A DNA stretch of 64,000 nt from Microbacterium hominis NBRC 15708 (GTDB lineage Bacteria > Actinomycetota > Actinomycetes > Actinomycetales > Microbacteriaceae), in assembly GCF_001592125.1 (NCBI RefSeq), contig NZ_BCWI01000001.1, positions 186,001 through 250,000 of the forward strand. The letters run 5' to 3'. Below the pieces are notes generated by a model. The model did not search any database. It had not been told where the DNA came from and worked only from the letters and a program-made list of their open reading frames with translations. The translations under genes were made by a program, and so were the position numbers. Shown here piece after piece: positions 2,361-3,073 of the stretch. The stretch's first letter is position 1; each line of letters starts with the position of its first letter.

Positions 2361-2597
2361 TCAGGGGCAGTGCATGAGGGGCTTCGGGCCGCTGCGGTCG
2401 AACGTGTGCTGCGACATCGGCGCTCCGCACAGCGGGCACGCGCGCTCGGCGCGGGCGGGCTCCGGCTCGACGTCGTAGGGGCCCACCGAGGCCGGTCCCG
2501 CGAAACGGATCAGGCGCGTGTTGAGGTACGTGTACCAGCCGCCGGCCTCGCGGACCCGCTCGCGCAGCGGAGGGCGATCCGGATCGTTTCGTGTCAT
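2361..2597 (-). CDS. Small zinc-ribbon-like protein, divergent from OhrR-type regulator
   Basis: A 78-residue protein of unknown function. It has a CPLC pair (Cys54/Cys57) followed by His64 and a C-terminal His76-Cys77, which looks like one small zinc-binding site. The N-terminal half (GGWYTYLNTRLIRFAG) is amphipathic with several aromatics. The ATG at 2597 is preferred over longer readings because a TACACT -10 box ends seven bases upstream and because a longer protein would run through the promoter of the divergent regulator. The shared 38-base gap holds a likely operator, so expression is probably controlled by the OhrR-like protein. It is not Ohr, the usual partner. Confidence 0.65.
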   Translation of the reverse strand: MTRNDPDRPPLRERVREAGGWYTYLNTRLIRFAGPASVGPYDVEPEPARAERACPLCGAPMSQHTFDRSGPKPLMHCP

Positions 2598-2602
2598 GAA
2601 GA

Positions 2603-2614
2603 TTAGTGTACTAA
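2603..2614. promoter_or_regulatory. Candidate OhrR-type operator
   Basis: TTAG and CTAA arms separated by four bases, in an AT-rich patch. The site covers the TACACT -10 box (2605-2610, minus strand) of the small zinc-ribbon gene and the -35 position of the regulator gene, so one bound dimer could silence both. Assignment to the regulator is by position. Confidence 0.45.
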
Positions 2615-2623
2615 CGATTCGAC

Positions 2624-2629
2624 TAGACT
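2624..2629 (+). promoter_or_regulatory. -10 box of leaderless ohrR-like gene
   Basis: TAGACT with six bases before the GTG at 2636, a leaderless arrangement identical to that of uvrA. Confidence 0.6.
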
Positions 2630-2635
2630 GGCGGC

Positions 2636-3073
2636 GTGGATTCTCGCGACGACCTCCTGAAGCTGGAGAACCAGCTCTGCTTCGCGCTCGTGACGGCGGC
2701 CCGCAACGTCGTCTCGATCTATCGGCCCGTGCTCGAGCCCCTCGGCCTGACGCATCCCCAGTACCTCGTGATGCTCGCGCTGTGGGAGAGCTCACCGCGC
2801 TCGCTGAGCGCGCTGGCCGACGAGCTCGCGATGGAGCCCGCGACGCTCTCGCCGCTCGTCAAGCGTCTGGAGGCGCAGGGCAGGGTCTCGCGCACGCGCC
2901 GGGCGGATGACGAGCGCGTCCTCGAGATCGCGCTCACGGCCGAGGGGCGTGCCCTGCGCACCGAGGCCCTCGACGTTCCCGGGCAGATCATGGCACGGGT
3001 GGGGGTCGACGCCACCGAGCTCGCGGCGCTCCGCGACGGTCTCGCGCCGTTCGCGGGGCGTCGGGTCGACTGA
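2636..3073 (+). CDS. MarR-family regulator of the OhrR type
   Basis: A 145-residue winged-helix repressor. The N-terminus (LENQLCFAL, then YRPVLEPLGLTHPQYLVMLALWE) matches OhrR closely, including Cys15, the residue oxidised by organic peroxides in Bacillus OhrR, and Tyr29; the second tyrosine partner of Bacillus OhrR (Tyr40) is His40 here. The recognition helix and wing lie at ~60-95 (TLSPLVKRLEAQG, RRADDERVLEI). It is transcribed divergently from the small zinc-ribbon gene and not from an ohr peroxidase gene, which is the expected neighbour. Peroxide sensing is inferred from family and Cys15. Confidence 0.8.
   Translation: MDSRDDLLKLENQLCFALVTAARNVVSIYRPVLEPLGLTHPQYLVMLALWESSPRSLSALADELAMEPATLSPLVKRLEAQGRVSRTRRADDERVLEIALTAEGRALRTEALDVPGQIMARVGVDATELAALRDGLAPFAGRRVD

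Follow-up and report, generated by a model that had tools for sequence, protein, structure and literature searches.

The closest described systems are the OhrR regulators of Bacillus subtilis and Xanthomonas campestris (1z91, 2pfb), which belong to the MarR family. In OhrR structures, Tyr40 contacts the sensing cysteine. The one-Cys OhrR of B. subtilis acts via a mixed thiol disulphide at Cys15, as stated in the accessible parts of two reports (PMC4360819, PMC8282892). In Corynebacterium glutamicum, OhsR is described in the accessible part of PMC6306002 as a thiol-based organic-peroxide regulator, which responds via S-mycothiolation and has very low reported identity to OhrR. The regulator analysed here is likewise actinobacterial and thiol-based by type, as far as its sequence tells; according to the same part of that source, OhsR differs in that it adjoins ohr, senses with Cys125 and is an activator. 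A MarR regulator of Mycobacterium smegmatis differs in having Cys58 and another neighbour (accessible part of PMC5430705). In the literature searched, mostly papers outside subscription, no published description of the pair of regulator and small protein treated below was found.

The window, i.e. the whole 64-kb stretch of Microbacterium DNA that was analysed, has the gene order uvrB, a murE-like ligase gene, a gene for 78 amino acid residues (positions 2361–2597, minus strand), the regulator gene (positions 2636–3073, plus strand), uvrA and uvrC, in which the identities of uvrB and uvrC were assigned by eye. The preliminary description had claimed that an OhrR-like sensor is paired here with a 78-residue CxxC...H...C protein and not with Ohr, and both genes are indeed present and divergently oriented. 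The regulator is a one-Cys, OhrR-like member of the MarR winged-helix family (PF01047, 48.2 bits against a cut-off of 24.6), and its best PDB matches are OhrR structures (1z91 with an E value of 8.1e-29, and 2pfb with 3.5e-34). Its Cys15, stated earlier to be kept along with the N-terminal signature of OhrR, lies in LENQLCF, and as in B. subtilis OhrR this is the only cysteine. Cys15, Tyr29 and His40 each occur in 144 of 144 distinct orthologues. The first two are the residues expected of an OhrR and correspond to positions in the B. subtilis and X. campestris proteins. The third is not, since all 144 have His at the place of Tyr40, where 1z91, 2pex and 2pfb have Tyr. The regulator is also unlike the B. 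subtilis and X. campestris proteins in having no ohr alongside (182/182) and in its candidate operator TTAGTGTACTAA. Moreover, it reaches 135.6 bits with the NCBIfam OhrR model NF052638, below the cut-off of 200; the short name of the model, TransRegOhrRVib, suggests that it is centred on Vibrio. A link to defence systems was rejected, as PADLOC gave only weak matches of CARF models, to the helix-turn-helix region of the regulator.

A second OhrR, which adjoins ohr, is present in the same genome (locus L032, contig C10), so both kinds of OhrR occur in one genome. It is 43% identical to the regulator in the window and shares the Cys sensor and the MarR family with it, but it carries TYPQY and is followed directly by ohr, and a tree branch separates the Tyr40 rows from those with His40. 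In this quick tree, built on 137 columns and with its deeper order not resolved, 59 His40 rows fall on one side of the branch and 40 others on the opposite side, with an SH-aLRT support of 100 (85 with the column masked). The neighbourhoods divide in the same manner. An ohr match within 600 bp was found for none of 182 distinct His40 sequences versus 10 of 15 Tyr40 sequences. When ohr was used as the bait in the family, the best 30 loci, among them that of the ohr in the same genome, showed an OhrR within 1.5 kb in 23 cases, all of the Tyr40 kind, and none in the other seven. Furthermore, 52 loci at class level, 12 fetched by search and 40 picked by hand among the matches it listed, as a rule with one or two for each genus, comprise 38 His40 loci without an ohr match and 14 Tyr40 loci, 11 of them with an ohr match; in this set, the His40 row L278 and the Tyr40 row L289 failed the cysteine pattern. 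The His40 regulators are found class-wide, and sequence comparison indicates that they are a distinct OhrR-like clade. The clade split and the counts of ohr neighbours led us to reject the idea of a canonical OhrR which has merely lost its ohr from the neighbourhood. OhrR-type sensors thus appear to split into two jobs, and the residue (Tyr40 or His40) together with the neighbour (ohr or a small protein) would predict which one. It follows for annotation that regulators of the His40 kind may bear the organic-peroxide label on weak grounds.

This division also bears on the signal. We infer peroxide control of the small protein from the invariant Cys15 and Tyr29, yet Tyr40 is replaced throughout the orthologues, and His40 could alter or abolish peroxide sensing. 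The regulator might then not be a peroxide sensor, and its His40 form might respond to another thiol-reactive compound, such as hypochlorite, an electrophile or a persulphide, or to a bound ligand. This would fit His40 throughout the clade against Tyr in the 23 ohr-adjoining regulators, and also the fact that the same genome already has a canonical Ohr-linked OhrR; the unbroken conservation of Cys15 and Tyr29 is as expected of a cysteine sensor and speaks on the other side, and we consider such a different signal to be on the unlikely side.

With the regulator as the bait in 59 Microbacterium genomes, each of the 54 orthologous regulators is accompanied on the opposite strand by the small gene, no more than 250 bp away, five of these neighbours being diverged copies (in G026, G032, G038, G043 and G057). 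The genus search located the small protein in 56 of the 59 genomes; G003, G016 and G033 hold neither gene, and the small gene is present without the regulator in G030, which is 77% complete, and in G051. Among the best 80 of 221 confirmed stretches with the small protein, nearly all are from Microbacterium. All 144 distinct pairs with both genes, drawn from loci L001–L244, are divergent. In other genera of the family, where the small protein was the bait, the regulator is present in 25 of 28 loci and absent in L052, L055 and L067. Class-wide, with the profile of the zinc-ribbon protein as the bait, the regulator adjoins in 26 of the 30 best loci among the matches listed, 7 of the 30 belonging to this family; the profile itself drew 7 of its 9 rows from loci linked to the regulator. 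A small homologue stands beside 149 of the 182 distinct His40 sequences, a figure that is inflated because the small protein had itself been the bait for many of the loci, and the searches with the regulator (in the genus), the zinc-ribbon profile and ohr as baits are the fairer tests. Several of the genome searches scored the best 10–20 first-look candidates per genome, by which absences in them are soft. The homologues of the small protein thus mostly co-occur with an OhrR-type gene and are not scattered, and the observation from which the analysis set out is confirmed and stronger than first stated.

A palindrome lies between the two divergent genes. The preliminary description had given it as a TTAG-N4-CTAA site; it is better described as TTAGT-N2-ACTAA, and in the window it reads TTAGT-GT-ACTAA, an exact palindrome with 5-bp arms. 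This candidate operator is TTAGTGTACTAA at positions 2603–2614. When one mismatch is allowed, the window has no other match to TTAGTNNACTAA (0.00 expected from 100 shuffles). In the genus, TTAGTNNACTAA was found in 53 of 59 genomes, and 52 of the 55 sites lie between the small gene and the regulator gene. The reversed pattern as a control matched at 12 sites, spread over 7 of the 59 genomes, and since this control is not empty, the three genus sites that lie elsewhere than at the pair may be due to chance. The exact 12-mer is present in 112 of the 144 distinct pairs; 21 differ from it at one position and 11 at two to four. The base-by-base profile was built on the 112 exact sites alone, so its operator columns are perfect by construction. 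The flank of these sites on the side of the small gene is partly kept up to its start codon, with a conserved spacing to the latter, and the other flank is kept for about 5 bases, after which conservation drops. Outside the genus, 14 of 25 genomes chosen for having the regulator hold TTAGTGNACTAA, with 17 of 19 places at the His40 regulator as judged by eye from the coordinates, and the other 11 have no exact TTAGTGNACTAA site; the reversed control of this search matched in 3 of the 25 genomes. As nearly all sites are at the pair, the regulator seems to be dedicated to essentially one predicted operator per genome.

The comparison also bears on the question whether the two genes are neighbours merely by descent and stayed together by chance, without a regulatory link. 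Many Microbacterium pairs sit between uvr genes, and this by itself could hold them together. Outside Microbacterium, though, the pair is kept in other surroundings, with no match to uvrA, uvrB or murE within about 1.5 kb (28 family loci, 25 of them with the regulator), and in 133 of the 144 distinct pairs the 12-base palindrome recurs with no more than one mismatch, which makes such an origin extremely improbable. A chance neighbourhood was likewise rejected in view of the complete pairing in the genus, the persistence of the pair in other contexts and the conservation of the operator across distinct pairs.

The position of the site would suit control of both genes. On the minus strand, TACACT (positions 2605–2610) lies within the operator, 7 nt ahead of the ATG of the small gene at 2597, and is by this leaderless spacing its probable −10 box. 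On the plus strand, TAGACT (positions 2624–2629), with leaderless spacing to the GTG at 2636, is the probable −10 box of the regulator gene (ohrR), which puts the −35 region of this gene over the left edge of the operator. Both promoters were assigned by eye, by reference to the consensus, and agree with the earlier proposal that the site covers the −10 box of one gene and the −35 region of the other. A simple sigma-70 scan found no promoter and gave no support to TAGACT as the −10 box of ohrR.

Two further observations concern such sites elsewhere. A second exact TTAGTGTACTAA is present in the same genome outside the window (G000:C1:270598-270609, i.e. L220:5599-5610), upstream of a gene that looks by eye like that of a deoC-like aldolase; none of the other 58 genus genomes searched has a second TTAGTGTACTAA of this kind, and the site is possibly there by chance. 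And in L251, L252 and L259, two operator-like palindromes stand 15 bp apart before His40 regulators, which suggests cooperative binding there.

The small gene shows the marks of a real coding sequence under constraint, as codon positions 1, 2 and 3 differ by 0.17, 0.14 and 0.47, respectively, in 136 pairs from 17 gap-free Microbacterium orthologues. Its product consists of an N-terminal helix leading to a GPASVGPYD box, and then a CPLCG-x5-H...HCP ribbon. Among the residues invariant in 27 genus rows are G34, P35, A36, V38, G39, P40, Y41, C54, P55, C57, H64, D67, R68, G70, C77 and P78. The 36 Microbacteriaceae rows, one of which ends early, show no variation at G34, G39, C54, P55, C57, G58 and H64, with C77 present in at least 90%. 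Nine diverse zinc-ribbon members still have C54, C57, H64 and C77 invariant, together with G34, P35 and G39, and these Cys and His residues make up the four ligands in two knuckles by which a zinc ribbon is recognised; zinc would presumably be bound there. The AlphaFold model, of moderate confidence, has helices at residues 11–18 and 21–33 and a short hairpin at 65–67/74–76 (pLDDT 79.9, pTM 0.34). A Foldseek search of the PDB with this model reached an E value of 4.8 at best. A profile search of the PDB yielded nothing beyond generic CxxC knuckles (lowest E value 0.031, rubredoxins from 0.042), no family of Pfam or NCBIfam was over its cut-off (the Pfam matches fall below it), and PADLOC and PHROGs yielded no family for the small protein. 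The only plasmid record that contains the protein labels the product 'hypothetical protein'. For the helix that precedes the GP box, an amphipathic character is not clear, as the hydrophobic-moment test was weak, with 4 of 14 below 0.05 against shuffles.

In other families, the partner of the His40 regulator is often of another kind. By reading the 38 His40 loci at class level, the zinc-ribbon protein was found in 5; a small protein that has no cysteine but carries a GP[APS] box and a mostly charged tail in 11 (in L263 it is downstream on the same strand); a membrane protein of about 60 amino acid residues with a single helix in 8, of which 7 have HGPAK; a DUF5313-type membrane protein in 4, not all divergent; and in the remaining 10 the partner is another one, or there is no clear partner, and none of the kinds just named. 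With the ribbon in 5 of 38 loci and other small proteins elsewhere, the zinc ribbon is a lineage-specific part. The profiles of the cysteine-free and the zinc-ribbon proteins align weakly and over the GP box only (24 columns, E value 0.00064, hhalign probability 28%), and this suggests, at the level of sequence, that these two kinds of partner share descent. The likeness of the membrane partners to the zinc-ribbon proteins was judged by eye. As cysteine-free and membrane partners are under the same clade, cysteines are not the common denominator. The DUF5313 proteins (PF17240) also adjoin the His40 regulator in some other families, but they are membrane proteins without the zinc-ribbon residues; the assignment is by Pfam in L257 and L277 and by eye in L262 and L265. 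Their place next to the regulator hints at a role for this family.

The preliminary description had taken the small protein for a thiol-rich component in redox or metal handling under peroxide control. Its linkage to the regulator is upheld, and the emphasis on thiols is too narrow, as clade partners elsewhere lack cysteines. Such a reading would have the small protein itself do redox or zinc work, as a thiol switch, a zinc store or a small chaperone. It can draw on the invariance of C54, C57, H64 and C77 in diverse members and of Cys15 in the regulator; a set of metal ligands by itself, however, does not show redox work, and the partners in other families are without these residues. Zinc ribbons are usually structural. 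We find direct redox or zinc work doubtful.

We rather assume, at about even chances, that the two genes form a self-contained thiol-switch circuit with one target, whose sole output is the small protein, an adaptor or effector. The reduced His40-type OhrR would bind TTAGTGTACTAA over the −10 box of the small gene and its own −35 region and so repress both genes. Oxidation of Cys15, the sole cysteine, probably followed by a mixed disulphide with mycothiol, would release the regulator from DNA, and upon release the small protein and the regulator would be made together. The ancestral working part would be the N-terminal helix with the GP[AP] box, possibly present also on membrane-anchored proteins elsewhere, and the Cys3His zinc ribbon would be a module which this lineage added; we assign what the partners would do in common to the helix with the GP[AP] box because cysteine-free partners replace the ribbon protein in other families. 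The small protein may be pictured as an adaptor or effector whose site of action is the membrane surface or a further protein. Somewhat more tentatively, and just short of an even chance, we extend this to a redox circuit found throughout the actinobacteria, in which the His40 clade gave up Ohr and the sole output is a set of modular helix-GP[AP] small proteins with an exchangeable C-terminus (zinc ribbon, basic tail or membrane helix). If this is true, the GP[AP] box would represent a functional element of a new sort, which might dock to the membrane or to the regulator. That the two genes recur together in many related bacteria, with the DNA switch between them, points to a stress circuit, and because there is essentially one operator, and the regulator, the promoter and the probable signal are within 700 bases, the function of the small-protein family can be tested directly.

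The main rival to the adaptor or effector would have the small protein bind the regulator next to it as a ligand, i.e. as an antirepressor or corepressor which would act on the MarR dimer in feedback on the switch. The pairing with one target and the co-variation of regulator clade and small partner would agree with this, and there is a precedent in MexR, a MarR regulator that has a very small protein, the 53-residue ArmR, as its antirepressor, to which our pair is likened by description and not by sequence (accessible part of PMC4737184). Against such feedback, small proteins exist without an adjoining regulator, and the partners of the clade are structurally diverse and include membrane proteins, which is odd for one binding surface; we deem a feedback ligand improbable and keep to the adaptor or effector.

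Zinc-ribbon homologues also occur away from the regulator. In five zinc-ribbon loci of other families of the order (L091, L092 and L094–L096, one of them at a contig edge), no regulator was found within about 1.5 kb, and the second zinc-ribbon paralogues in L097–L099 are also without an adjoining regulator, which indicates that it can function apart from the circuit. Further cases were observed in addition. Diverged orphan small genes lie between uvrA and uvrB in two genus genomes (L208:5967-6185 in G032 and L227:2305-2478 in G038), without an adjoining regulator or an exact operator, and the full pair is elsewhere in both genomes. The lone small gene of G051 (L211:5637-5885), whose product is 72% identical, lies directly behind a gene which by eye is likely to encode an NAD(P)H flavin reductase; a search of this genome gave no His40 regulator. 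In L195 and L219 (G258 and G276, from another family of the order), a zinc-ribbon homologue without the regulator stands between genes which look by eye like priA and def/fmt. A second family of paralogues, with the pattern CPxCGxPMxEH...HCP, is present in Microbacteriaceae (L204, L205, L210, L217 and L218), with no His40 regulator called alongside. As judged by eye, those in L204, L205, L210 and L218 adjoin genes for dihydroxyacetone kinase and glycerol facilitator, and the one in L217 adjoins genes for trigger factor and clpP.
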